A DNA stretch of 64,000 nucleotides from an uncultured Bacteroidales bacterium (GTDB taxonomy: Bacteria; Bacteroidota; Bacteroidia; Bacteroidales; P3). A program made the position numbers and the translations under genes. This document shows positions 4,092-63,010 of this stretch, piece after piece. The notes below the pieces were generated by a model. That model ran no database searches and was not told the origin of the DNA. It was given only the letters and a program-made list of their open reading frames with translations. Where the stretch lies: positions 1-64,000 of the forward strand of contig CAJONE010000002.1 of the NCBI GenBank assembly GCA_905235855.1, written 5' to 3'. Position 1 is the stretch's first letter. Each line of letters starts with the position of its first letter.

Positions 4092-5197
4092 AATCTGGTT
4101 ACGTCTATCTCGAAACGGGCATCGTCGCCATTACATGGGGAGCTGCACGGGATAGCGCAGTTGCCGCATGGCAAAAGTTCGCCGTGCAAGCGTTTTTTCA
4201 CCATATCCTCAATAGCTTGACGCAGTTCGGGGATGCTAATATTACGGATAACCTCGTCGCAAAAAGCATAGGAGAGCATCGTCATGGCCGTCCGTTCGCT
4301 AATGCCGCGCGAACGCATATAGAACAAGGCCTGGTCGTCGAGCTGGCCTACGGCACTTCCATGCGAACATTTCACGTCGTCGTTGTAGATTTCGAGAAAC
4401 GGCTTGGTTTCGACATGGGCTTTGTCGGTCAATAGAATGTTGCGGTTGTTCTGATAGGCTTCGGTCTTCACTGCACCGTCCATAACGAGCACATGCCCAT
4501 TGAAGGAGGCACGCGCTTGGTCGTCGAGGATACCTTTGTAGAGTTCAGAGCTGGTGCAATGCGGAGCGTTGTGCTGAACAAATATATAGTTGTCGCAACG
4601 CTGCTCGCCATCGATAAGATAGAGGCCGTCGGCACGCAATTCGCAATGCTCGCCCAGCATTCGAATTTCGCAATGGTTGAAGATATGGCCGCCGTTGAGC
4701 GTGATGCAGTCGGTGAACAGGCGAGAACCACGCTCCATAGTGATATAAGTTTTGTTTATAAGGCCAGAACGGTTGTTGATGTTTTGCAGTTTATAGTATT
4801 CCACCTGTGCACCCTCGGCAATGCTGATATGAGTCTCGTTATTGCCGAGCGAGCGGGTGTCGCCTACAGTGTCGTCGCAATGGATGATTGCGACACTTGC
4901 ACCGGCACCGACGTTAATGGTGTTGCGGAGTTCGATGAGCGACTTGTATTCGGTGCTGACCACCGATTGAATCTGAATAGGCTTTCCGAGCACCTGGCCA
5001 GGCTCAACGGTGATGTTCAATCCATCGCCAACACCGTTGACAACAGTTCGCTTGTCGGTGTCGAGATTGGGTATGTTGCACGAGCAACAGATGTCGGCGT
5101 CCGAATGCGACACGTCAGGACGCTTCAAACCATCATTCCAGAAATCGGAGAAATCGACCCCTTTCAGAGCCTCTGGCAATACGTCTTTCCTAATCAT
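4088..5197 (-). CDS. sufD: Fe-S cluster assembly protein SufD
   Basis: 369 aa; SufBD C-terminal motif [24 protein letters not shown]; directly after sufC. Confidence 0.93.
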
Positions 5198-5952
5198 TTT
5201 TCCATTTCTTTCTTAATCCAGTCGTAACCCTTCTGCTCCAGCTCCAAGGCGAGTTCCTTGGGGCCAGTTTTCACGATACGTCCCTCGTAGAGGATGTGCA
5301 CAAAGTCGGGCACAATATAGTCGAGCAATCGTTGATAGTGGGTTATGACCACGATGGCATTGTCGTTTGAACGCAATTTGTTCACACCCGAGGCTACGAT
5401 GCGCAAGGCGTCGATATCGAGTCCCGAATCGGTTTCGTCGAGAATGGAAAGAGTTGGATTGAGCATTGCCATCTGGAATATCTCGTTCTTCTTTTTCTCG
5501 CCGCCCGAGAACCCCTCGTTTACCGAACGGTTGGCCAACGATGCGGTCATTTCGACCACCTTTTTCTTCTCCTCCATCAGTTTCAGGAAGTCGCTTCCGC
5601 TCAACGGGTCAAGGCCACGGTATTTGCGTTGTTCATTGACAGCAGTTCTCATGAAGTTGGCAATACTCACTCCTGGTATTTCGACAGGATACTGGAAACC
5701 GAGGAAAATGCCCTCTGCGGCGCGGACCTCGACTGGCATATCGAGAATATTCTTGCCATTGTAAACAACTTCGCCATCGGTGACTTGATATTTCGGATTG
5801 CCGGCAATGATACCAGCAAGGGTGCTTTTGCCATTGCCGTTGGGTCCCATGATGGAGTGCACTTCGCCCGTATTGATTTCAAGATTTACGCCCTTGAGTA
5901 TTTCCATATCGCCGATACCGGCGTGAAGATTGCGTATTGAAAGAAGAGACAT
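5194..5952 (-). CDS. sufC: Fe-S cluster assembly ATPase SufC
   Basis: [52 protein letters not shown]. Confidence 0.97.
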
Positions 5953-5956
5953 AAAT

Positions 5957-5984
5957 TGGTGATTAATGATTGGTGATAAGTGAA
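5957..5984. repeat. 7-bp tandem repeat, 4 units (TTGGTGA TTAATGA TTGGTGA TAAGTGA)
   Basis: Direct reading; immediately upstream of the sufC start codon. Confidence 0.85.
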
Positions 5985-6039
5985 AAAAAGTTTATCAACT
6001 GGAAAGTGTACGAAGTAATGCGTTGTTTCAAGTTATTCC

Positions 6040-6810
6040 TCAATTCCTTACTACAATATCGACTATATCGAGAAGGCCGATTCCGAGAATATCGCACACG
6101 CGCTGCTTGTACATGGCAATTTCCACAAATCCTGAAGCTGACACGGTTAGCGACGGCTCTTTGCAGTCGGAATAAGACTCCTTTATTTCGCCGATTCGCA
6201 CACCGCGGTATGAGATGTCGTACTTGCGGCCAGCCAGCACATTCTCAAGCTCGTCGATGCGAATGTCGAGGTAAGCGTTGCCATAGCTGTCTATATGCCA
6301 CACATGTGCTTTCACGAGACTGTCCATCACCATATAACGGAAATGACGCTCAACGAGAGCCACGTCGCGCCCGATTTCGGACAACGGCGTGCCAGACAAA
6401 ATACGCGCGGCCTGAACGCAGAATATATCGTAGGCCGCAAAATTCAGATACTTCGTGGGCCACTGTAGGGTTATCTCGACAGCCCGCTGATAGTCGTTGC
6501 CGAAAACCATGAACGGCAGACCATTGTTGGTGCAGATATAGTATTGCGAATTGTGTTGCACTATCACAAATCCCTCTCCCGACTCCTCTTCGGACAGTAT
6601 GTCGATTATATGAACCGTGCCCGATGGAAAACCCGTACACGCACTCTTCACGAGATACGGTGCCACACGCAGATCGAAAGGCTTGAGGCTATGGTTTATA
6701 TCTACCACCCGCACATCGGGAATCATCGAGTAGAGACGCCCTTTCACCATACCGGCGAAAAAGGCACCGTCGCCCCAATCGGTCGTTAATGTGACTATAG
6801 GACCAGACAT
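6040..6810 (-). CDS. SAM hydroxide adenosyltransferase (DUF62 family)
   Basis: MSGPIVTLTTDWGDGAFFAGMVKGRLYS...ADVRVVDINHS-type N-terminus typical of the family. Confidence 0.88.
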   Translation of the reverse strand: MSGPIVTLTTDWGDGAFFAGMVKGRLYSMIPDVRVVDINHSLKPFDLRVAPYLVKSACTGFPSGTVHIIDILSEEESGEGFVIVQHNSQYYICTNNGLPFMVFGNDYQRAVEITLQWPTKYLNFAAYDIFCVQAARILSGTPLSEIGRDVALVERHFRYMVMDSLVKAHVWHIDSYGNAYLDIRIDELENVLAGRKYDISYRGVRIGEIKESYSDCKEPSLTVSASGFVEIAMYKQRVCDILGIGLLDIVDIVVRN

Positions 6811-6911
6811 TTGTGCGCTTCGATAATTGAAAGCCTAAAAACGGTACGCCTACCTTAACGTGGGCCAAGAGTCAAATCCAACGCGAAGAGAAGACGCACT
6901 GCATCGCTGCA

Positions 6912-8030
6912 TTAAGATTCTTTCGGAGTTTTCCAGTTGAAGTAGACCTGCAGTCCAGCAGTCTGGAAAAACTGTAGAGCACCCATAGCACCCTTATTCA
7001 TAACATTCTGGCCAAGCTCGTTGGTGGAGCGGAAATCACTGTCGTACTTCATCTGGAAGCCAGCGTAGGCTGCAAGCCACGAGCTGAAGCGGTATTCAAG
7101 TTTCACCTCCAAGTCGTAGTCGATTTCATGCCAAAGGCTGAAGCCGAATTTCTGGCCGCCATTCATGGAGGCATAACCGCGATCAATAAGCTCCTGACGG
7201 CTATTGGCCTCACGGTTCAAGTTGCTGCACTTCATATAGTCATAGAAAAGTTCGGCACGGACATAGAGATTAAGGTTCTTGGCGATGTCTTTTTTCATAT
7301 AGAACTTGATATACGAACCGAGTCCGAAATAGGCGTGACGATACTTGCCGTTAGCGAAGTCGGCGCTGTCCTGAATGACACCGTAAGTGTAGCCCGTGCG
7401 GATTAGCTCGTCGTCGCACACGAAAGTAGTCTTGCCAGTCAAGAACGAGAGCGACACGTTCCACCACTCTTTCTTGTACTCAAAACCGATGGCTGTGGTG
7501 AGGTATGCCGGAGCCATAAAATTCGAAATCAGCACAGTGTCGTCGCCATACTGATAGCCCTTGTAGAACTGGGTCTTGAAGTTGGCAATGGCATTGATGT
7601 TCCACGAATCGCGCAAGGCGCGCGAGTATGTGCTTGTGAGGTCAATCTTGTCCTCGTTTTTGCGAAGACTCTCGAGCAAGGGCGTGTTCTTGCCATCGAG
7701 GTCCTGCCAATGGATACCGAAAGCGAGGTCGGCTATATTGTCCCAGATGTTCTTACCGTTGACATACTTGTATGTGCCGTTGAAAGAAGCCGTAATGGCT
7801 AAACGCGCGTTGCCCGCCGAGGACCAGTTGTTGTAGTAGGCCTCATCGATTTTCAGAGCCGGGGTAGACGAGGTGGTCCATATCCCCTTGGGCTTTTCGT
7901 TGACTTCCGCGGCGGGCTGCTGCCCGTCGGTCTCTTGAGATTCGACAGGAGCGGGGTTTTCTTCCTGTGCCATCAGTTGGCACGAAACCGAAACCATCAG
8001 CAAAACGGCTAAAAACTTGAAACTTTTCAT
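6912..8030 (-). CDS. DUF3078-type outer-membrane protein
   Basis: Signal peptide; WTTSSTPALKIDEAYYNNWSSAGNARLAITASFNG motif. Confidence 0.8.
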   Translation of the reverse strand: MKSFKFLAVLLMVSVSCQLMAQEENPAPVESQETDGQQPAAEVNEKPKGIWTTSSTPALKIDEAYYNNWSSAGNARLAITASFNGTYKYVNGKNIWDNIADLAFGIHWQDLDGKNTPLLESLRKNEDKIDLTSTYSRALRDSWNINAIANFKTQFYKGYQYGDDTVLISNFMAPAYLTTAIGFEYKKEWWNVSLSFLTGKTTFVCDDELIRTGYTYGVIQDSADFANGKYRHAYFGLGSYIKFYMKKDIAKNLNLYVRAELFYDYMKCSNLNREANSRQELIDRGYASMNGGQKFGFSLWHEIDYDLEVKLEYRFSSWLAAYAGFQMKYDSDFRSTNELGQNVMNKGAMGALQFFQTAGLQVYFNWKTPKES

Positions 8031-8494
8031 TGTTCTATGTCTTTTATAACATCTTTAATAATATCCAGCTCATAACCGCGCGACATGAGAAAAGCCGTCA
8101 GTTTGTTGACGTTTTTCTCGTCGTCGTCGCCGGTGTAAGTCCTCCACTTGGTTTGCGCCACGCCGAGAAGCACCTTTCTGTACTCCTCGTCGTCGATGAC
8201 CTTAATGCCTTTGGCAATCACGTCGCCGGCAATGTGTTTTTGGCGTAGCATGGAAGTGATTTTAATCCTTCCCCATTTCTGGTGAAACGCCTTGCTCTCG
8301 CAATAGCGGCAAACATATCGGTACTCATCGATATAGCCGCCCGCCGTGAGCATGGTAACAATCTTGTTGGTGGAAGTCGCGGGGCATCCCCAATCGACCA
8401 GTTTTCTCATCACAGTGGCAGTGCACTGTTCGTCGGCAGCACAGAACTGCTGCGCTTTTTCAAGAAAGACTTGTTCTTTAGCGTCGATTTTCAT
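8027..8494 (-). CDS. recX: Regulatory protein RecX
   Basis: Three-helix RecX pattern (GYIDEYRYVCRYCESKAFHQKWGRIKITSMLRQKHI); likely start MKIDAKEQ at 8494; the ORF track extends to 8515. Confidence 0.8.
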   Translation of the reverse strand: MKIDAKEQVFLEKAQQFCAADEQCTATVMRKLVDWGCPATSTNKIVTMLTAGGYIDEYRYVCRYCESKAFHQKWGRIKITSMLRQKHIAGDVIAKGIKVIDDEEYRKVLLGVAQTKWRTYTGDDDEKNVNKLTAFLMSRGYELDIIKDVIKDIEQ

Positions 8495-8624
8495 AAGGTT
8501 TGCAAAATTACACATTTTTTTTGAAAGCCATAAGACAACGCGCCCATTCGTCTATTCTGCCGCCACTTGCAAAATTAAACTTCATTTTTTCGACCGTGAG
8601 GATGATTGGCGTTATTTCGAAAAA

Positions 8625-8656
8625 TTTGGCGTTTTTTTTGGAATGGTGTATTTTTG
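8625..8656 (+). promoter_or_regulatory. Promoter for uvrB
   Basis: TTTG (8625-8628), N20, TATTTTTG (8649-8656). Confidence 0.75.
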
Positions 8657-8680
8657 CAATATTCAAAGCAACAAAGGACA

Positions 8681-10840
8681 GTGAACTTCGAATTAAAATC
8701 AGATTTTGCACCCATGGGAGACCAGCCGGAGGCAATAAGCCAGCTGGTGGAGGGCATCAATGCGGGACAACGGGCACAGGTGCTGCTGGGCGTGACGGGG
8801 TCGGGCAAAACGTTCACCGTTGCCAACGTGATAGCACGGCTTAACCGCCCGACACTGGTGATGAGCCACAACAAAACGCTAGCGGCACAACTGTATGGCG
8901 AATTCAAGCAGTTCTTCCCGAACAACGCAGTGGAGTATTTTGTGAGCTACTACGACTACTACCAGCCAGAAGCCTATATACCGGCCACAAACACATACAT
9001 AGAGAAAGACCTCGCCATCAACGATGAGCTGGATAAGTTGAGGCTACGAGCCTCGTCGGCTCTGCTGAGCGGACGACGCGACGTAATCGTGGTGTGCTCA
9101 GTCAGCTGCATCTACGGCATCGGCAACCCCGAAAGTTTCAAAGAAAGCACGATACAGGTCAAGGTGGGCGATCGGCTGGTACGCGACCACTTGCTGTCTC
9201 AACTGCTTGACGCGCAGTATGTACGCAACGAAATAGAGTTCACAAACGGGCGATTCAGGGTCAAGGGCGACACGGTTGACATTTTCCCATCGTTTGCCGA
9301 TTTCTGCTACCGCATATGCTTTTGGGACGACGAAATTGAAAGCATCGAAAGTTTCGACCCAGTGAGCGGGCAGACAATCGAGCGCCTAACGGAAGCCAGC
9401 ATCTATCCGGCAAGCAATTTCATCACATCGAAAGAAAGCATGGGGGACGTATTGCACCAGATACAACTCGACATGTTCGAGAGGCGCGACTGGTTCAAAG
9501 AGCAAGGGCGCAACCTCGAAGCCGCCCGACTGGAGGAGAGGGTGAACTATGACCTGGAGATGATTGCGGAACTGGGCTACTGTAGCGGCATCGAGAACTA
9601 CTCGCGCTATTTCGACGGGCGACGAGAAGGCACACGGCCATTCTGCCTGCTCGACTATTTCCCCGACGACTTCCTACTGGTGGTCGACGAAAGCCATGTT
9701 ACGATACCTCAGATACGCGCCATGTACGGGGGCGACCGAAGCCGAAAGACAGCACTGGTCGAATACGGTTTCCGGCTGCCATCGGCACTTGACAACCGCC
9801 CGCTAACCTACGACGAGTTCTACGGAATGACCAACCAGACCATTTACATCAGCGCAACCCCCGCCGAGTATGAGCTGGCTGAGGCCGAGGGGATAGTGGT
9901 GGAGCAGGTGATACGACCAACAGGATTGCTAGACCCCGTGGTCGAAGTGCGTCCGGCCATAAACCAAGTGGACGACCTGCTGGACGAAATCGAAAAAACC
10001 GTTGACAAGAAAGAGCGCGTGCTGGTAACAACCTTGACCAAGCGCATGGCCGAGGAGCTTTCATCGTACCTGATAAACCTCGGCATCAGAACCAAATACA
10101 TTCACTCGGACGTGGACACACTGGAACGCGTCGAAATAATGCGCGACCTGCGGATGGGCGTTTTCGATGTTTTGGTAGGAGTAAACCTGCTGAGGGAGGG
10201 TCTCGACTTACCCGAAGTGTCGCTGGTGGCCATTTTGGATGCCGACAAGGAGGGATTTCTGCGCAGCGACCGAGCTTTGATACAGACAATCGGACGCGCC
10301 GCGCGCAACGTGCACAGCAAGGCCATCCTTTACGGCGACAAGATTACGGGCAGTATGCAACGTGCAATCGACGAAACCAACCGCCACCGCGAAAAACAGA
10401 TACGATACAATCTGGAACACCACATAGTGCCACGCCAGATTGTGAAAAGCACAGAGGCCATTATGGGAAGCACCTCAGTGATAGAGCGAGCCGCCGAAGA
10501 ACGCAATGAATTCAAGGCACCCGAACCGCCCAACGTGCCCAACATTGCAGCCTCGCCCTATGCGCTGAACACGCCGGCCACAGCACCGTCGAAAGTGGCC
10601 GAAAACGGCCACAACTACGGCGGCGGCCAACGTGGGACAGACAACTTGCATAAAGCGGCAGGAAATCCGTCAACTCCGCATATCGACTGCCGCAGCAAAG
10701 ATCAACTGCGCAAAGACATACGCGAGGCACAACGCAAGATGCAAATTGCCGCCAAAGAGATGGATTTTATGGCCGCCGCGCAATACCGCGATATGATAAA
10801 GGCAATGCAAACTGCACTGGAAGACGCACGCGGCGACTGA
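8681..10840 (+). CDS. uvrB: Excinuclease ABC subunit B
   Basis: [48 protein letters not shown]. Likely GTG start at 8681, 25 bp after the -7 box. Confidence 0.96.
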
Positions 10841-10881
10841 CCCCGACATATATAACGACAAAAAAAAGTCCGCGACCGGAC

Positions 10882-12478
10882 GTGAACACGCATAAAACAA
10901 ACATAACGAACAATATCTTTCAGGCAGAGCACATCGCGCAACAACAAATGGACAATCAGACCGATAGCAACAAGTCCCAAACCACGAACACGACACCGTC
11001 GTACATAGCAATCGACCTCAAGTCGTTCTATGCCTCGGTGGAGTGTGTGGAGCGCGGACTTGACCCGTTGTGCACGAACCTGGTTGTAGCCGATCGGAGC
11101 AGGACAGATAAGACCATCTGTCTGGCGGTGTCGCCGTCGCTCAAGACGCGCCCGCCTGTTCGAAGTAGTGCAACGAATAGGCGAAGTGAACAGGGAGCGA
11201 TGGACAGCCGCGGGCCGACGCTATACAGGAAAGTCGTACAACGATGGCGACCTGAAAGCACACCCCGACTGGCAAGTGGACTATCTGGTTGCGCCTCCAC
11301 GCATGGGGCACTACATAACGGTAAGCGCACAGGTCTACAAAACCTACCTGAAATACATCGCACCCGAAGACATACACGTTTACAGCATCGACGAGGTGTT
11401 TATCGATGCCACCAACTACCTCAACACCTACAAGACAACCGCACACGACTTGGCCATAACCATGATACGCGACGTGCTTTCGACAACGGGCATCACGGCG
11501 ACAGCCGGCATCGGAACGAACATGTATCTCTGCAAGGTAGCGATGGACATTGTGGCCAAACACATGCCCGCCGACAAGGACGGTGTACGCATAGCCGAAC
11601 TCAACGAGAAGAGCTATCGCCAGCAACTGTGGAACCACCGGCCGCTGACCGACTTCTGGCGCGTCGGACACGGCATTGCAGAACGACTGTCGCCACACGG
11701 TATCGACACTATGGGCAAGATTGCCCGCACATCAGTCGAAAACGAGGATTTGCTATACGGACTGTTTGGCGTGAACGCCGAATTGCTCATCGACCATGCA
11801 TGGGGGTGGGAGCCCTGCACCATCGACATGGTGAAAGCCTACCGTCCGTCAAGCAATTCGCTGAGCAGCGGACAAGTGCTGCAGGAGCCATACAGCAGCA
11901 CAAAAGCACGGGTGGTGGTACACGAGATGGCCGATGCCATAGCACTCGACTTAGTAGCCCGACGCCTGGTGACCGACCAACTGACGCTTACAATAGGCTA
12001 CGATGTCGAAAGCCTGCGAAACCCTTCGGTGCGAAGCCAGTATATCGGACCGGTTGTGCGGGACCATTACGGACGTGAAGTGCCGAAACACTCACACGGC
12101 ACCGCAAACCTCGAAGCACCATCGTCATCGGAGCAGGAAATCGTAAGTGCAGTTCTCGACCTGTACGACCGAATCGTAAATCGCAACCTGCTCATACGAA
12201 GAATAACAATCGCCACGAACCATGTGGTGAACGAGCAAGCGGCAAACAGGCATCATAAAAATCAGGCTCGCCAACTGGATCTGTTTGAAGACCACGAGAC
12301 TTCCGAATCCGAGCGAGCCGCCAAACGTAAGGCATTGGACAAGGAACGACGGCTGCAGGAAGCCAAACTCGCCATAAAAAAACGCTTCGGCAAAAACGCC
12401 ATACTAAAAGGGCTGAACTTCGAGGATGGGGCCACTGCCAAAGAGCGCAACGCCCAAATTGGCGGCCACAAAGAATAG
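10882..12478 (+). pseudogene. Y-family DNA polymerase (UmuC/DinB-like), frameshifted near 11145
   Basis: N-terminus YIAIDLKSFYASVECVERGLDPL...ICLAVSPSLK is in ORF 10882; RLFEVVQRIGEVNRE...YSIDEVFIDATNYL...FGKNAILKGLNFEDGATAKERNAQIGGHKE is in ORF 11168. Confidence 0.85.
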
Positions 12479-12523
12479 TGATTAATGCTTTGTGATTGAT
12501 GATTAGCAAATAGCGAATAGAAA
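12475..12523. repeat. 7-bp tandem repeat, 7 degenerate units filling the polymerase-companion gap
   Basis: ATAGTGA TTAATGC TTTGTGA TTGATGA TTAGCAA ATAGCGA ATAGAAA, then ATG at 12524. Confidence 0.9.
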
Positions 12524-12745
12524 ATGGAAGACACATACGACGACATAATCAACATACCACACCACGTCTCCCCTACCCGACCAAGAATGGCCATGATAGA
12601 GCGTGCAGCCCAGTTCGCGCCATTCGCAGCGCTGACCGGATACGACAAGGCCATAGACGAGACGGCACGACGAAACGAAGAATCGTACGAAGCCAGCCCA
12701 ACAGACGAGGACGAGTGGCAGCCAGACTATGACGAAAACCGCTAA
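12524..12745 (+). CDS. Small protein associated with Y-family polymerase
   Basis: 73 aa; HHVSPTRPRMAMIERAAQFAPFAALTGYDKAIDETAR pattern commonly found beside this polymerase type. Confidence 0.65.
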   Translation: MEDTYDDIINIPHHVSPTRPRMAMIERAAQFAPFAALTGYDKAIDETARRNEESYEASPTDEDEWQPDYDENR

Positions 12746-14028
12746 AGCCTTCCGTCTACCACATCACGCGGCAGAATACCCTTCACGTCATAGATCACCC
12801 CGCCAGGCTTCGCCAGCGAGCGCACATCCATTTCGAGAAACTCATTGTGGGCAACGGCCAATATCACGGCATCGAAAGAATTGGGGCTTTGAGTGAAGGT
12901 ATTCCGAATCTCGACCCCGTATTCACACATTACCATATCAGGATTTGCCCAAGGATCATAGATAGTGATATTAGAGGTATACTCCAACAGAGTGTGGTAA
13001 ATGTCGACCACCTTAGTGTTTCGGATGTCAGGGCAGTTTTCCTTAAACGTCACACCGAGAATGAGAATGTCGGCATCTTTGACAATCACGCCTTTCTTGT
13101 TCATCAGTTTAACCGTCTGGTTAGCCACATAAGCTCCCATGCCGTCGTTAAGTCGACGTGCGTTGCTCATCACGCGAGGCAGGACACCATACACCTGGGC
13201 TTTCTGTATAAGATAGTAGGGATCGACCGAAATGCAATGGCCGCCAACCAGACCAGGACTTAGCTTTATGAAGTTCCACTTCGACGATGCGGCTTCAATC
13301 ACGTCGTGAGTGTCGATACCCATAGCGTTGAATATCTTGGCCAGTTCGTTCATGAAAGCGATGTTTACGTCGCGCTGCGAGTTCTCGATAATTTTCGAAG
13401 CTTCGGCCACCTTGATAGACGGAGCCTTGTGAGTGCCGTTGACGAGTACCGAGTTGTAGACCCTATCGACCAAGTCGGCTATTTCGGGAGTGCTGCCGGA
13501 TGTCACTTTCTTTATTTTTTCGACGGTGTGTGTTTTGTCGCCCGGATTAATGCGTTCGGGGCTATAGCCGGCAAAAAAATCAACATTAAATTTCAGACCG
13601 CTTACGCGCTCAACGACAGGGAGACACTCCTCCTCGGTGACACCAGGATAGACCGTGGATTCATACACAACCACATCGCCTTTCGATATGACACGGCCCA
13701 CCGTTTCACTGGCAGCCCAAAGGGGGGTGAGGTCCGGTCGGTTGTTTTCATCCACCGGCGTGGGGACTGCCACGACATAAAAATTGCATTGCCGGATGTC
13801 GTCCAGGTTGGTGGTGCACGAGAAACCATGCTTCGAGATAGCCTCGCGCAGCATGTCGTCGGGCACCTCGAGCGTGGCGTCGTGACCGCTCATGATAGAG
13901 TTCACGCGATTGGCATTCATGTCATAGCCAACCGTGTGGTATTTGGTTGAAAAAAGACGTGCCAACGGCAGCCCGACATAACCGAGACCTATAACGGCTA
14001 TTGATATTTCCGATTGTAACATATACAT
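12742..14028 (-). CDS. Nucleotide-sugar dehydrogenase (TviB/WbpO-like UDP-HexNAc dehydrogenase)
   Basis: ISIAVIGLGYVGLPLARLF, GLVGGHCISVDPYYL, LGVTFKENCPDIRNTKVVDI. Confidence 0.9.
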   Translation of the reverse strand: MYMLQSEISIAVIGLGYVGLPLARLFSTKYHTVGYDMNANRVNSIMSGHDATLEVPDDMLREAISKHGFSCTTNLDDIRQCNFYVVAVPTPVDENNRPDLTPLWAASETVGRVISKGDVVVYESTVYPGVTEEECLPVVERVSGLKFNVDFFAGYSPERINPGDKTHTVEKIKKVTSGSTPEIADLVDRVYNSVLVNGTHKAPSIKVAEASKIIENSQRDVNIAFMNELAKIFNAMGIDTHDVIEAASSKWNFIKLSPGLVGGHCISVDPYYLIQKAQVYGVLPRVMSNARRLNDGMGAYVANQTVKLMNKKGVIVKDADILILGVTFKENCPDIRNTKVVDIYHTLLEYTSNITIYDPWANPDMVMCEYGVEIRNTFTQSPNSFDAVILAVAHNEFLEMDVRSLAKPGGVIYDVKGILPRDVVDGRL

Positions 14029-14036
14029 ATAAGAAA

Positions 14037-14064
14037 TTAGTGAATAGTGATTAGCGAATGGTGA
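14037..14064. repeat. 7-bp tandem repeat, 4 units (TTAGTGA ATAGTGA TTAGCGA ATGGTGA)
   Basis: Direct reading; contains the upxY stop codon. Confidence 0.9.
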
Positions 14065-14599
14065 TTTTTCTGACTTTCGGTTGGTTTTGCGGTTTGGCTG
14101 GACGCAGGAGAAGTCGGTCGACAGTTGTTACGATAGTCGCACCGATCGCGTCGATACGCACAGCAAAATTGCCGTCTTTGCAGCCGGACAAGAGGATGCC
14201 CGACATACCTGCAAAATGCCCTTCGACGATGTCGACCTTTTTTCCTTTCGTCAACGAGGCCGTCTCATGTACAAAAAGCTCCTGCTTGGAGGCGACAAGG
14301 CGCTCAATAGCGTCAATCTGAGCCTGCGGCACGGTCACTATTTCGCCTCCAAACGACACAATGAAACAGACCCCTGGTGTGGACCGTATCGGAATGACAT
14401 CAGTATTTTTTATCTTGACGAAAACGTATGACCTGAATAGCGGCTCCACGACCATCTTGTATCGGTCGCTCCACCGATGGCAGCGCTCGACCTGAGGCAA
14501 ATAGCATTCAAAGTCCTGCCCCGCTAACAACTGTGCCACGCGCTTTTCGGCGCGCGAACGCGTGTATATCGCAACCCATTGCGGTGTTTGTGTGAGCAT
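14051..14599 (-). CDS. UpxY-family NusG-like transcription antiterminator
   Basis: WVAIYTRSRAEKRVAQLLAGQDFECYLPQVERCHRWSDRYKMVVEPLFRSYVFVKI; ATG at 14599. Confidence 0.85.
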   Translation of the reverse strand: MLTQTPQWVAIYTRSRAEKRVAQLLAGQDFECYLPQVERCHRWSDRYKMVVEPLFRSYVFVKIKNTDVIPIRSTPGVCFIVSFGGEIVTVPQAQIDAIERLVASKQELFVHETASLTKGKKVDIVEGHFAGMSGILLSGCKDGNFAVRIDAIGATIVTTVDRLLLRPAKPQNQPKVRKITIR

Positions 14600-14601
14600 C
14601 A

Positions 14602-14643
14602 ATTGTCAATCGTTAATGGCGACCCGTGATTAGTGATTAGATT
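14602..14643. repeat. Degenerate 7-bp tandem repeat (ATTGTCA ATCGTTA ATGGCGA CCCGTGA TTAGTGA TTAGATT)
   Basis: Direct reading; immediately upstream of the upxY start. Confidence 0.7.
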
Positions 14644-14678
14644 GTGTGTCCTGTCTTTTCACTATTCACTTTGAATTG

Positions 14679-14686
14679 CAAAGATA
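14679..14686 (-). promoter_or_regulatory. -7 element TATCTTTG for upxY
   Basis: TAnnTTTG match on the minus strand; no clear -33 element. Confidence 0.5.
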
Positions 14687-14729
14687 CGTCATTTTAAAGA
14701 AACGGCAGGCCTGTGTCAGGAATTTGTAG

Positions 14730-14737
14730 TACTTTTG
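14730..14737 (+). promoter_or_regulatory. -7 element TACTTTTG for lipoprotein gene
   Basis: TAnnTTTG match 20 bp upstream of ATG 14758; -33 element weak. Confidence 0.5.
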
Positions 14738-14757
14738 CAGTCAAAACAGAGGCCACG

Positions 14758-15159
14758 ATGACTAAAACTGCAATACAGCCAACCTTATTTTTCAAATTCA
14801 TTCTCATTGCTTTAATATTGTTTCTCTCAGGCTGCAAAAGCGACAGTGCGCAAAGCAACCGCAACACCCCGTCGGCAACCGTTGCAAGCTTCAATTCGGC
14901 CATTCTTGCGAGAGACTACAAGCGAGCTCTGACGCTTACCGACACCGATGAGGAGGAATATCCGCTTTACGAGACATGGATGAAACTGATGTTCGACGAA
15001 ATGACCGGCGCGACACTTGACGTGCTGACGGAAGAGATTGCACCCGACAGCAGCAGCGCGCTGGTCAAAGTCAAACTCACCAATGGCAAAACCCACGACA
15101 CACTCTACACGCAGACTGTCAAGGCAGGGGGGCTTTGGAGGATTCGTCTCAGTGAATGA
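14758..15159 (+). CDS. Small lipoprotein (DUF4878-like)
   Basis: Lipobox FLSGC; NTPSATVASFNSAILARDYKRALTLT; start placed at ATG 14758. Confidence 0.6.
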   Translation: MTKTAIQPTLFFKFILIALILFLSGCKSDSAQSNRNTPSATVASFNSAILARDYKRALTLTDTDEEEYPLYETWMKLMFDEMTGATLDVLTEEIAPDSSSALVKVKLTNGKTHDTLYTQTVKAGGLWRIRLSE

Positions 15160-15214
15160 GTGATTGATGAACAGTGAACAGACAATACACGTTTGTCGAA
15201 TCACTAATCGCCAA
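15151..15214. repeat. Degenerate 7-bp repeat region, both orientations (+ AGTGAAT units; - TTGGCGA TTAGTGA TTCGACA)
   Basis: Spans the convergent gap and contains the stop codons of both flanking genes. Confidence 0.7.
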
Positions 15215-17464: not shown

Positions 17465-18505
17465 CTAAACAAAGCGATCCTGTTTGTCGAGTGATGACGA
17501 CTGTCGCTGATGCTCATACTCATACATTATACTGCGATTCAGTTCGTAGCCAACCAAAAGCATCCGGCAACTGAAATATATCCATAAAAACACCACAAGC
17601 AGCGTCCCGATCGACCCATAAAGCAGGTTGTAGTTCGTGAAGTTGTCAATGTATAGCTCGAAAAGACCTGTAAAGGCGAAAAACATAAGCGACGACATTA
17701 CGGCACCTACAGAGAAAAAACGCATTCGCGATGAACGGTTTTTCATCCAATAGAAATCAATACAGTAGTATATCGAATTGATAACCAGTAGTGTCATTAA
17801 ACCCAAAACTACCCATCGTCCGATGCCCACAATATTGCGCACATTCCCCGACCATCTGATTATACCCTTTTCGGTCAAAATATTGAGGAAATGGTGATAT
17901 TCCATCATCAGCACAAGCATCAGGATGATAAGCAGATAAAGAACAATAACAAGCATGAAACCCATCAGATAGCGCACTATCCAAGGACGTGTTTTTGCCT
18001 CAATCTTTGGATTGCGAAAGGTGCGAAAAAGGGACATCAGGCCGTTGGCTGCGAGAATGAGCGAAGAAAGGAATGCCACCAGCTGCAGGCCACTGCGCCG
18101 GTTGCCCATAATGTCGTTGACGGTGGCGATAACCGGCTCTGCTATTCGGGGCGGTATCACGGCGGCCATGTTATTTACAAATTCGCCCTGAATGCCGTCG
18201 AACGGGAGGTAAGCGATGAGGGTTAAGAGAAACATCAGCATTGGCGGAAAAGCCACCACAAACGAGAACGAGAGCGATTTGGCGCGCTGTCGCGTGTCGC
18301 CGCTGAATATTTCTTTGAGAAACGACCGCAACACGTCGTCCCAACAGACACCCTTCACACCAGGGACCTGAAAACGGTGAAGGAAATTGAGTACACGTCC
18401 CGAACTGATTCGGTCGTAGGTTTCCATGCACCAACGCCTTATAGGGTCGTTCGGATCCTTGAGTTTCGCTATTAACGACTGCCAATACTGTTTAGGCGTC
18501 TTCAT
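17465..18505 (-). CDS. YihY/UPF0761 family inner-membrane protein
   Basis: Multiple TM segments; RAKSLSFSFVVAFPPMLMFLLTLIAYLP; GSIGTLLVVFLWIYFSCRMLLVGYELN. Confidence 0.85.
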   Translation of the reverse strand: MKTPKQYWQSLIAKLKDPNDPIRRWCMETYDRISSGRVLNFLHRFQVPGVKGVCWDDVLRSFLKEIFSGDTRQRAKSLSFSFVVAFPPMLMFLLTLIAYLPFDGIQGEFVNNMAAVIPPRIAEPVIATVNDIMGNRRSGLQLVAFLSSLILAANGLMSLFRTFRNPKIEAKTRPWIVRYLMGFMLVIVLYLLIILMLVLMMEYHHFLNILTEKGIIRWSGNVRNIVGIGRWVVLGLMTLLVINSIYYCIDFYWMKNRSSRMRFFSVGAVMSSLMFFAFTGLFELYIDNFTNYNLLYGSIGTLLVVFLWIYFSCRMLLVGYELNRSIMYEYEHQRQSSSLDKQDRFV

Positions 18506-28569: not shown

Positions 28570-30084
28570 TTACCGGCTTACATGCTGCTCGCGGCCTTCT
28601 ACATATATAGCCGCCAACGGCCTTGCCGGACACAGGTATTCGCATTTGCCGCATCCAAGACAACGGTTTTCGTCGACAGCAGGGACATCATAGCCAGAGG
28701 CATAGTCGCGAACCATCTTGACGGCCTCCGCCGGACAAACGTCGGCACAGTGGCCGCACTGTTCACCACGCGCCGACAGACAGTTTTGGACCACCACCAC
28801 CGCACGACCTATGCTAATGGATGTTTTTTCGTCGGCTGTAATCTTGACTATTGCCCCAGTAGGACACACCTCCGAACATTTCACACATTCGGGACGGCAA
28901 TAACCGTCGTGGAAACACATCTCGGGCTGCATAAGCGTTTTCAAGTCTTTAGACGGACGCAACAGATTGCCCGGGCAGGCGGCAACACAGAGCTGACAGG
29001 CTGTGCAGTGTTTCGAAAAATGGCGCAGGCCACGCGAGCCTGCGGGCTTGAGCGGCGTATTGAGTCTTGGCATCACCCTGTCTTCAATCACAGCAAGCCC
29101 GCCATCGATATTCTCTTCCTGGGCCTGTAGAGCCATGGCAGCTCCCACAGCAGCCGATGAAACCAAAAACTTACGGCGGGAAGAATCCACCTCACCGACT
29201 GACGGCGACCGGCGACCAGCGACCGGCGACAATTTGAAACGTATCGCATCTGATTTGCATTTGCCAATGCAGTTCATACAGGCCACGCAACGGCTGCCGT
29301 CGATCTCGCCCGTTTTGGAATTTATACACTCGGCCTTGCAGTTGCGCTCACAACGACCGCAGCCGCTACACTTGCTCTTGTCGATGACAGGTTTCATAAG
29401 CGACCAGCGCGAAAGAAAGCCCAAAACCGTACCCACAGGACATATAGAGTTGCACCAAATACGGCCACGCCACAAAGACAAAGCACCGACCAAAACCAGC
29501 ATCACCGCCGCTGTCACGAGAGTCACCGCCGAAACCGCCTTCACCTCAACACTATAGAAAGCATAACTGTCGTGCTTTTCGGCTATCGAGGCAATTATAT
29601 TGTTAAGCCAAACATAGACCGGCTGCCCAATCGAGCTCACTATGCGCCCATAAGAACTGTAAGGAGCGATGACGGCAACAATAGCATTGACACCCAGCAG
29701 CATACCTGCAACAAACAAAACCAGTAGCGTCCAGCGCAGCCAAGTGAGCGGCTTGCTGTAACGATAGCGATTCTTTTTGAAACGGTCGCCTATCCAGGCA
29801 AAGAAATCCTGCATAACACCCAATGGGCATATAATCGAACAATAGACACGCCCGAACAGCAGTGTCACAACCACCAATGCGATTATGACACCCACATTCA
29901 GAGACATCACGGCTGGCAAAAACTGCACCTTAGCCATCCATCCGAGATAGAGGCTCACCACACCAGTGAAGTCGAGAAAAAGCAAGGTTATTCCTATAAA
30001 GAATATCAATGCAAGAATAATACGGATTTTTCGTAACATAAGATATTTTTCGATTGTTAATTCGGGATTCCGTCTTCCAAACAT
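28570..30084 (-). CDS. NapH-like polytopic ferredoxin fused to NapG-like multi-4Fe-4S domain with internal Tat-like motif
   Basis: TM segments then CSGCGRCERNCKAECINSK; CVACMNCIGKC; internal SSRRKFLVSSAAVGAAMA; then CTACQLCVAACP, CVKCSEVCP, CLGCGKCEYLCP. Confidence 0.85.
   Translation of the reverse strand: MFGRRNPELTIEKYLMLRKIRIILALIFFIGITLLFLDFTGVVSLYLGWMAKVQFLPAVMSLNVGVIIALVVVTLLFGRVYCSIICPLGVMQDFFAWIGDRFKKNRYRYSKPLTWLRWTLLVLFVAGMLLGVNAIVAVIAPYSSYGRIVSSIGQPVYVWLNNIIASIAEKHDSYAFYSVEVKAVSAVTLVTAAVMLVLVGALSLWRGRIWCNSICPVGTVLGFLSRWSLMKPVIDKSKCSGCGRCERNCKAECINSKTGEIDGSRCVACMNCIGKCKSDAIRFKLSPVAGRRSPSVGEVDSSRRKFLVSSAAVGAAMALQAQEENIDGGLAVIEDRVMPRLNTPLKPAGSRGLRHFSKHCTACQLCVAACPGNLLRPSKDLKTLMQPEMCFHDGYCRPECVKCSEVCPTGAIVKITADEKTSISIGRAVVVVQNCLSARGEQCGHCADVCPAEAVKMVRDYASGYDVPAVDENRCLGCGKCEYLCPARPLAAIYVEGREQHVSR
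29203..29230. repeat. 7-bp tandem repeat x4 (CGGCGAC CGGCGAC CAGCGAC CGGCGAC) inside a CDS
   Basis: Direct reading; encodes the SPVAGRRSPS linker between the two fused halves. Confidence 0.95.
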
Positions 30085-62846: not shown

Positions 62847-62901
62847 GCTACGTCAAGTCTATATCCAGTCTATATCATGTCTATGTATTCTCTATGTATT
62901 G
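62847..62901. repeat. 11-bp tandem repeat, ~5 units (TCTATATCCAG TCTATATCATG TCTATGTATTC TCTATGTATTG)
   Basis: Four clear units 62858-62901 and a degenerate one before; upstream of the porin-like gene. Confidence 0.85.
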
Positions 62902-63010
62902 TCCGCGAGAAGAACTTGCTTCACCAAATTTGGCTACTCGATGTTAAAAATTCATCATTTTTTGTGAGGTAACAAAAAAACAGAAGAAAATATTTTTGCA
63001 CAATAAAAAT

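Follow-up and report, generated by a model that had tools for sequence, protein, structure and literature searches.

WWAGTGA heptamer arrays in an uncultured Bacteroidales genome belong to a genus-wide class of period-locked intergenic repeats

The short WWAGTGA tandem arrays found in the window (the whole stretch of DNA analyzed here, 64,000 nucleotides of contig CAJONE010000002.1 from an uncultured Bacteroidales bacterium) form one sequence family within a larger class of intergenic arrays, whose units vary widely in sequence and are locked in length to almost only 7, 8 or 11 bp. This lock, which holds regardless of sequence, is unusual and genus-wide. The arrays are concentrated between genes, overlap stop codons more often than expected, differ in presence at the same gene junction between relatives, lose similarity between units with distance along the array and, in a duplicated period-11 array, differ by whole units. 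They are probably short, drifting arrays that expand and contract in place in steps of whole units, with the capping of reading frames as a by-product.

Heptamer arrays in the window

The original prediction listed period-7 arrays at 5957-5984, 12475-12523, 14037-14064, 14602-14643 and 15151-15214, and these sites are given in Table 1 with the limits that we read. The first three are present; four units can be read directly at the first, the second is recognizable though strongly drifted, and the third is the best array of the window, with the top TRF score. At the fourth a clear direct array occupies only about 14626-14643, and an inverted arm at 14659-14672, a - strand match of the genome-wide WWAGTGA search, had been overlooked. 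The fifth has units at both ends and is not a single array, since forward units are separated by a 24-base spacer from reverse-complement units with which they form an inverted pair; TRF reports nothing for 15151-15214 at a score of 30. The four stop codons (of the polymerase, upxY, lipoprotein and queG genes) lie exactly where they had been placed. Individually the window arrays are weak (TRF scores 30-48), and the case rests on the repeat family and not on any one of them. We also note a period-11 array at 62853-62903, a further member of the same period-locked class.

Table 1. Positions and gene context of the repeat arrays in the window
Position	Strand	Units	Read by	Context
5955-5984	+	degenerate heptamers, ATTGGTG ATTAATG ATTGGTG ATAAGTG A	direct reading, TRF	directly upstream of the start of a SufC-like ABC ATPase gene (5194-5952, - strand)
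12475-12523	+	drifting heptamers, AATAGTG ATTAATG CTTTGTG ATTGATG ATTAGCA AATAGCG AATAGAA	direct reading, TRF	fills the gap that separates the Y-family (IMS) polymerase gene from a 73-aa ORF beginning at 12524; polymerase TAG stop (12476-12478) within the first unit
14036-14066	+	WWAGTGA, TTAGTGA ATAGTGA TTAGCGA ATGGTGA	direct reading, TRF (score 48 at period 14)	overlaps upxY 3' end; upxY stop 14051-14053 (TAA on - strand)
14626-14643	+	GTGATTA GTGATTA G		upxY leader; left arm of inverted pair
14659-14672	-	AAAGTGA ATAGTGA (- strand reading), TCACTATTCACTTT		upxY leader; inverted arm
~15151-15175	+	degenerate heptamer units	direct reading	lipoprotein gene end; encodes final residues (SE) and TGA stop 15157-15159
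15200-15214	-	reverse-complement units, GGCGATTAGTGATTC read on -		encodes queG final residues (GD) and stop 15204-15206 (TAG on - strand)
62853-62903	+	period 11, TCAAGTCTATA-like	TRF	intergenic

A class of arrays with periods of 7, 8 and 11 bp

Two tandem copies of WWAGTGA occur 14 times in the 2.25-Mb genome, where we estimate that about 0.3 occurrences are expected. When at most one mismatch was allowed, matches were found at 13 intergenic and 2 coding places in a 464-kb sample, whose densities are slightly inflated (whole-genome counts are unaffected) because the stretches from the window's genome, G000, and from the nearest relative sampled, G014, were partly picked for holding matches. 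In the same 464 kb, 89 scrambled heptamers gave means of 1.2 intergenic and 1.4 coding places, with maxima of 9 and 6, and only 16.5% of the sample is intergenic, against 13 of the 15 WWAGTGA places. Scrambled heptamers served as the control because the reversed motif is unsuitable; AGTGA reads the same backwards, and reversal gives the same tandem repeat, shifted. The excess at period 7 is found throughout the genome and extends to its relatives, and the arrays are mostly intergenic, both in keeping with the original prediction.

Across 17 species of the genus (442 kb of intergenic DNA), the period spectrum contains 128 tandem arrays of period 7 (4.7 expected), 61 of period 8 (4.0 expected) and 124 of period 11 (4.7 expected), and the other periods yield 4 against 9.7 expected (period 5), 9 against 3.7 (period 10) and 3 against 3.0 (period 13). 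Unit sequences are diverse, with 71 distinct units in 104 arrays at period 7 and 95 in 104 at period 11. Species differ in their use of the periods: G006 has mainly 7, G016 mainly 11 and G014 all three. Period 11 was not seen in 80 other Bacteroidota loci, an outgroup set from a queG search. The genus is a natural experiment in which relatives differ in period (7, 8, 11 or mixtures) and unit sequences vary freely, so that length is separable from sequence, and such period differences between relatives could tie repeat length to a gene.

Turnover of the arrays and how they may arise

Among 35 gene junctions conserved between G000 and G014, 11 carry an array in G014 and none does in G000 (Fisher p = 0.0004). 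G014 lacks the queG-lipoprotein array of the window, and its copies of these two genes overlap tail to tail; the leader of upxY spans 78 bp in the window and 26 bp, without an array, in G014, with promoter-like boxes conserved; and the queG-rlmL gap holds a 118-bp array in G014 and measures 11 bp in the window. At orthologous junctions, where a comparison of copy number had been proposed as a check, the difference seen for WWAGTGA arrays was one of presence or absence only. A whole-unit difference was found only in a duplicated locus of the window's genome (L112:16206-16370 and 17556-17654), where period-11 arrays with identical 60-bp flanks have 15 and 9 units and differ by exactly six 11-bp units. 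Within period-7 arrays, the identity of units falls from 0.77 through 0.70, 0.64, 0.57 and 0.53 to 0.50 at separations of one to six units, and the decay is similar for periods 8 and 11. This decay argues for local sequential duplication; the curve would be flat for the consensus of a binding site, or if the units had mutated once the array was complete. Some long arrays also have 3-unit higher-order repeats, as in L192, where identity is 0.98 at lag 3 and 0.88 at lag 1.

The presence or absence at junctions and the whole-unit difference in the duplicated array favor an idea already contained in the original prediction, that of an expanding minisatellite tolerated only between genes. Growth and shrinkage in place would proceed by local tandem duplication of whole units, either by replication slippage or by unequal exchange, with point mutations in between; slippage is the likely enzymatic event, and arrays would be quickly gained and lost at single gene junctions. 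They would persist mainly between genes, where they may be neutral or tolerated, since units that carry stops and repeat at a non-triplet period destroy a reading frame. An array extending over a gene tail would provide that gene's new stop codon, and capping would then be a by-product of growth and not its purpose. A non-triplet array can in this way reset neighboring gene ends and extend a leader, which bears on the evolution of intergenic regions and gene ends.

It is possible, although we consider it rather unlikely, that the heptamer arrays are instead the arms of palindromic, foldback or MITE-like units copied to new sites, isolated arrays being their decayed remnants. Inverted pairs are frequent (14626-14672 and 15151-15214 among them), although most arrays are unpaired, and short-gap pairs of the same period are more often inverted than direct, by 21 to 13 at period 7, with a single locus cluster accounting for most of the direct pairs, and by 6 to 1 at period 11. 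The core GGCTNVCGC adjoins period-7 arrays in 15 of 473 cases, compared with 1 of 605 when the pattern is reversed, and is found in four species with differing arm sequences; about 30 places in G006 and 5 in G053 have two arrays linked by a 19-bp core, ACAAATGANNGCGGCAGCC; and an identical unit is found at many sites. However, the arms vary in sequence among copies of one core, the window's genome lacks the 19-bp core (found, among 41 genomes of the genus, in G006 and G053 only), and of the species sampled, G000 among them, only G006 has flanking words that recur next to period-7 arrays. A mobile element with common flanks carrying WWAGTGA was rejected, the enrichment of 9-mers at period 7 being null in G000, G014, G002, G021, G005, G012 and G023.

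Three observations sit less easily with in-place growth. The many arrays that are paired in inverted orientation, in some cases flanking a recurrent GC core, suggest dispersal or structure as well; the WWAGTGA word is found at many unrelated sites in several species, which is not expected from independent slippage at random sequence; and plain slippage birth and death should leave many two-copy states, whereas isolated exact two-copy duplications in intergenic DNA are about as frequent as chance predicts (34 against 25 for 7 bp and 9 against 6.8 for 8 bp). Nucleation by length-specific duplication of random DNA is, by the same counts, unsupported for 7 and 8 bp. Somewhat less probable than foldback copying is the idea that a trans-acting machine, be it a polymerase, primase, nuclease or recombinase, fixes repeat length independently of sequence, which would be an undescribed fixed-length repeat-making activity. 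It would fit the finding that arrays of unrelated sequence share periods 7, 8 and 11 and that species differ in their choice among the three, and the lack of an excess of two-copy states at 7 and 8 bp would mean that arrays have several units from the outset.

A regulatory function, with tandem heptamers as the sites of an RNA- or DNA-binding regulator or inverted pairs as leader or terminator hairpins, seems to us improbable. Such a role has been proposed for TAACTGA repeats, which lie mostly just upstream of start codons (MacGregor 2015, PMC4679880), and the upxY-leader pair at 14626-14672, which has the upxY start on one side and a conserved TAnnTTTG box (14678-14686) on the other, folds better than its shuffles (z = -2.65 on the + strand and -2.44 on the - strand). 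On the other hand, the 15151-15214 pair does not (z about -1.2), the start-codon side is not enriched within 20 bp for arrays of all kinds (43 against 45 expected), and a single genome holds widely different units, which drift over the length of each array. The region has no Rfam match at the gathering threshold, and its terminator-like sites are not above shuffles; a known RNA family and intrinsic terminators were rejected on these grounds.

The original prediction had also offered a dedicated ORF-capping element, kept by selection because a period of 7 with TAG, TGA or TAA halts translation in all frames at gene ends, and this appears very doubtful. Its expected stop-codon enrichment does exist: four window genes have stop codons inside arrays, and WWAGTGA arrays overlap 12 stop codons where random placement in the same gaps predicts 5.7 (binomial p about 0.009) and 1 start codon where 5.0 are expected, with array and gene on the same strand at 9 of the 12 stops. 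Units with at least one stop on either strand also exceed shuffles, 96% against 83% at period 7 and 88% against 74% at period 11, a small excess that is biased upwards by the gene caller itself. But 35 of the 55 WWAGTGA arrays touch neither a stop nor a start codon, arrays in co-directional gaps have no strand preference (19 same, 17 opposite), and periods 10 and 13 would serve equally, yet are near chance. Nor are the arrays kept at orthologous junctions, where the genes of the nearest relative manage without them, and since other units of equal period behave alike, stop-bearing sequence does not define the class. Chance selection by eye of short AT-rich heptamer runs, to which the low score of every single window array might point, is hardly credible, as it is refuted by the scrambled-heptamer and shuffled-sequence controls across the genome and genus.

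Comparison with known repeat systems

Bacterial heptamer repeats have been noted for decades and, to our knowledge, have no proven cause. The STRR repeats of cyanobacteria are heptamer tandem arrays dispersed in the genome, with no known function. By description, they resemble the arrays here in being dispersed and heptameric and differ in phylum; calling them a loose precedent understated the matter, as the literature holds nearer ones.

Heptanucleotide LSSR (Mrazek et al. 2007, as cited in PMC4679880 and PMC4692102) are one of these. According to those later papers, 7 is the commonest length among repeats of 5-11 nt in many bacteria, and polymerase-related slippage has been proposed as the cause. 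The arrays here are similar in having tandem 7-bp units beyond expectation (128 against 4.7 in the genus) and, in the window's genome, non-triplet units mainly outside genes (13 of 15 places); they differ from LSSR as described there in being short and degenerate and in the equally sharp peaks at 8 and 11 that this genus shows besides 7. A tandem repeat of GTGATTA, a rotation of the window's TTAGTGA, has been described in Helicobacter pylori (van Belkum, as cited in PMC4692102).

The TAACTGA direct repeats of Beggiatoaceae, cyanobacteria and a few Bacteroidetes (PMC4679880) are likewise heptamers lying between genes, bring stops into every forward frame and are strain-specific, being missing at the same junction in close relatives. 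They have one fixed, forward unit mostly just upstream of starts, whereas our arrays have many units, little orientation preference and a weak stop preference. WWAGTGA cannot be reached from TAACTGA by rotation or complement, and placement a few nucleotides upstream of starts is not seen here (43 against 45 for all arrays, 1 against 5.0 for WWAGTGA). The GGGAATC and GGGGA(T/C)T repeats of Xanthomonas and Nostoc (Rehm et al. 2015, PMC4692102) are also intergenic heptamers that vary in length and sequence between close relatives, with some inverted (convergent) pairs; they are G-rich, quadruplex-capable and, unlike the arrays here, mostly kept at the same junction between species. Within the Bacteroidales, a Porphyromonas gingivalis MITE, as outlined in PMC4596501, has a minisatellite of tandem repeats inside an inverted-repeat element and so resembles the array-core-array units of G006; for the window arrays, no terminal inverted repeat with shared flanks, as in that outline, was found.

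Heptamer repeats with such properties, GTGATTA included, are thus already published, and by themselves the WWAGTGA arrays are merely a further example of a known repeat type; what is new is the genus-wide lock to periods of 7, 8 and 11.

Unit length of the intergenic arrays

Intergenic DNA of 17 species of the genus was scanned without bias for tandem repeats of every period, with expectations taken from shuffles. Excesses appeared at period 7 (128 arrays vs. 4.7 expected), period 8 (61 vs. 4.0) and period 11 (124 vs. 4.7), and strong signals also at the multiples 14, 16 and 22. In the same DNA periods 5 and 13 do not exceed chance, and period 10 is only about twofold above expectation. Period use varies by species; genome G006 has mostly 7, G016 mostly 11, and G014 has 7, 8 and 11 together. 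Among 80 loci from other Bacteroidota (96 kb intergenic), periods 7 and 8 are again in excess (17 vs. 1.7 and 12 vs. 0.7) and period 11 is not (0 vs. 1.0). The period-11 arrays are stronger than the heptamers and have been documented less. Unit sequence is free within wide limits, with 71 different units among 104 period-7 arrays; the class is defined by unit length rather than sequence, and the drifting heptamer WWAGTGA (TTAGTGA/ATAGTGA) is one member of it.

The predicted excess of WWAGTGA in the window's own genome is borne out. WWAGTGAWWAGTGA occurs 14 times in the 2.25 Mb, against a rough expectation of 0.3 (our estimate from base frequencies). With at most one mismatch it lies at 13 intergenic and 2 coding places in 464 kb of this genome, whereas 89 heptamers with the letters scrambled average 1.2 intergenic and 1.4 coding and none reached 13; part of the stretches from this genome and G014 had been selected for containing WWAGTGA hits. 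The distribution is patchy, with whole-genome tandem counts from 0 to 131 within the genus and, at the level of the order, a three-unit version in 11 of 149 genomes, each from a different genus.

Arrays in the window and at gene ends

Units of WWAGTGA type are present at all five places named in the original prediction, and the stop codons it named are found at the positions it gave; as arrays these places are short and drifted, and two of them are more complex than a simple array (see table). Nearby genes encode UvrB-like, Y-family (IMS) polymerase-like, UDP-glucose/GDP-mannose dehydrogenase, NusG-domain (upxY-like), QueG, RlmL-like methyltransferase, SufC-like ABC ATPase and SAM hydroxide adenosyltransferase proteins; the small ORF termed a lipoprotein gene has no Pfam match. 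The inverted pair in the upxY leader folds more stably than shuffled sequence (z about -2.5).

Positions of arrays and core-linked sites in the window and at sampled loci (L-numbers)
Feature	Location	Description
Clearest heptamer array	window 14036-14066	TTAGTGA, ATAGTGA, TTAGCGA, ATGGTGA
Place 14602-14643	window 14626-14643	clear array restricted to this part; opposite inverted arm 14659-14672
Place 15151-15214	window 15151-15214	degenerate forward units, spacer, reverse-complement units (15200-15214)
Inverted heptamer pair	window 14626-14686 region	leader of NusG-like upxY, between start and conserved TAnnTTTG box
Intragenic period-7 array	window 29203-29230	CGGCGAC; inside coding frame 28570-30084 (- strand), without stop codons; one of few intragenic heptamer arrays
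Period-11 arrays	window 62853-62903; L107:6573-6626; L112:16206-16370 and 17556-17654; L113:9308-9442; L116:7012-7140	
Heptamer run, G014	L246, reverse complement 2478-2595	successive blocks ATCTTAC, ACTATAA, TTAACCA
GGCTNVCGC-like cores	L127:12703; L128:133; L189:9772; L190:5187 and 9179; L202:7007; L213:3500	
19-bp core composites, G006	L132:17218-17700; L144:1500-3100; L134:93-160	

The enrichment at stop codons holds, with 12 WWAGTGA arrays touching a stop vs. 5.7 expected by random placement in the same gaps (p about 0.009) and one touching a start vs. 5.0 (p about 0.03). In co-directional gaps, the 20 bp next to the upstream stop contain 61 arrays of period 7, 8 or 11 where 45.7 +/- 4.3 would be expected; the 20 bp next to the downstream start show no excess (43 vs. 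45.1). Units that carry a stop on one or both strands are somewhat commoner than among shuffled units, a figure biased because stop-free arrays are more readily called coding. Gene calls came from a simple script based on codon usage instead of a published caller, and seven WWAGTGA arrays fell inside called genes, mostly close to the predicted start. The proposal that the arrays are boundary elements capping ORFs is not upheld, as 35 of the 55 WWAGTGA arrays touch neither a stop nor a start. The simplest reading of the stop overlap is tolerance of arrays at gene tails, not design; an array overrunning a gene tail would supply a new stop there, and start regions would not be overrun.

Junctions shared with G014, the nearest sampled relative by queG and SufC identity, differ in length. 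There the 3' ends of queG and the lipoprotein gene overlap; in the window 44 bp separate the two genes, and the final residues and stop of both (SE-stop, GD-stop) come from the array. The conserved TAnnTTTG box lies 78 bp from the upxY start in the window, against 26 bp in G014, and the inverted array pair falls within the additional DNA. Conversely, the gap from queG to the next gene contains a 118-bp run of several different heptamers in G014 and is 11 bp in the window. Other relatives examined do not share the window's gene order at these junctions.

Growth, turnover and inverted pairs

In arrays of at least five units, period-7 units one to six apart are 0.77, 0.70, 0.64, 0.57, 0.53 and 0.50 identical (arrays were chosen by one-unit similarity, which inflates the first value and leaves the later fall unaffected), and periods 8 and 11 fall similarly. 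Copying of units from their neighbors during ongoing mutation should give such a steady fall; it is not expected of an array made at once and then decayed, nor of units all held to a single binding consensus. Several long arrays contain three-unit super-repeats, and long repeats may be collapsed in these draft assemblies. Two copies of a locus in the window's genome (L112, G000:C7), with identical 60-bp flanks and the same 11-bp repeat, have 15 and 9 units, a difference of exactly six. The suggested comparison of orthologous junctions revealed presence/absence variation, arrays being found in 11 of 35 conserved junctions in G014 (our count from the junction list) and none in the window genome, where most of the array-bearing gaps have a shorter counterpart.

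We infer an enzymatic cause. Three features are still odd, namely the restriction of periods to 7, 8 and 11, the behavior of two-copy duplications and the inverted pairs. Isolated exact two-copy duplications in intergenic DNA of 17 genus genomes show no clear excess at 7 bp (34 vs. 25) or 8 bp (9 vs. 6.8), so array birth from a single duplication is not obvious. At 9 bp such duplications exceed expectation in both intergenic (14 vs. 1.8) and coding DNA (33 vs. 5) and are possibly target-site-duplication footprints.

Short-gap array pairs are inverted in 21 cases and direct in 13 at period 7, and 6 and 1 at period 11. Several species have a GC core, GGCTNVCGC, next to period-7 arrays (15/473 vs. 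1/605 for a reversed control); heptamer arms that are inverted and differ in sequence also surround GC-rich cores like it in several species. In G006 a composite consists of a heptamer array, the 19-bp core ACAAATGANNGCGGCAGCC and a different heptamer array. This core lies between two arrays in about 30 copies in G006 and five in G053, with zero copies among 39 other genus genomes. The composite is a possible new foldback/MITE-like family, and such an element may spread arrays in some species; around the window arrays there is no sign of one.

Comparison with known heptamer repeats

The new part is the genus-wide 7/8/11 lock with free unit sequence, of which we found no description in the literature searched. 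Heptamer repeats are already known, and the literature (Mrazek 2007, as cited in PMC4679880 and PMC4692102) ranks them the commonest 5-11-nt simple repeats in many bacteria and offers as a guess slippage tied to the polymerase footprint. Rehm (PMC4692102) reported inverted-pair heptamers, and MacGregor (PMC4679880) described TAACTGA repeats that carry stops in every forward frame and whose presence is specific to the junction, and gave them a reading similar to ours of the stop overlap. By themselves the window arrays are a further example of these known repeats; GTGATTA, listed by van Belkum for Helicobacter pylori according to PMC4692102, is a rotation of the present unit.
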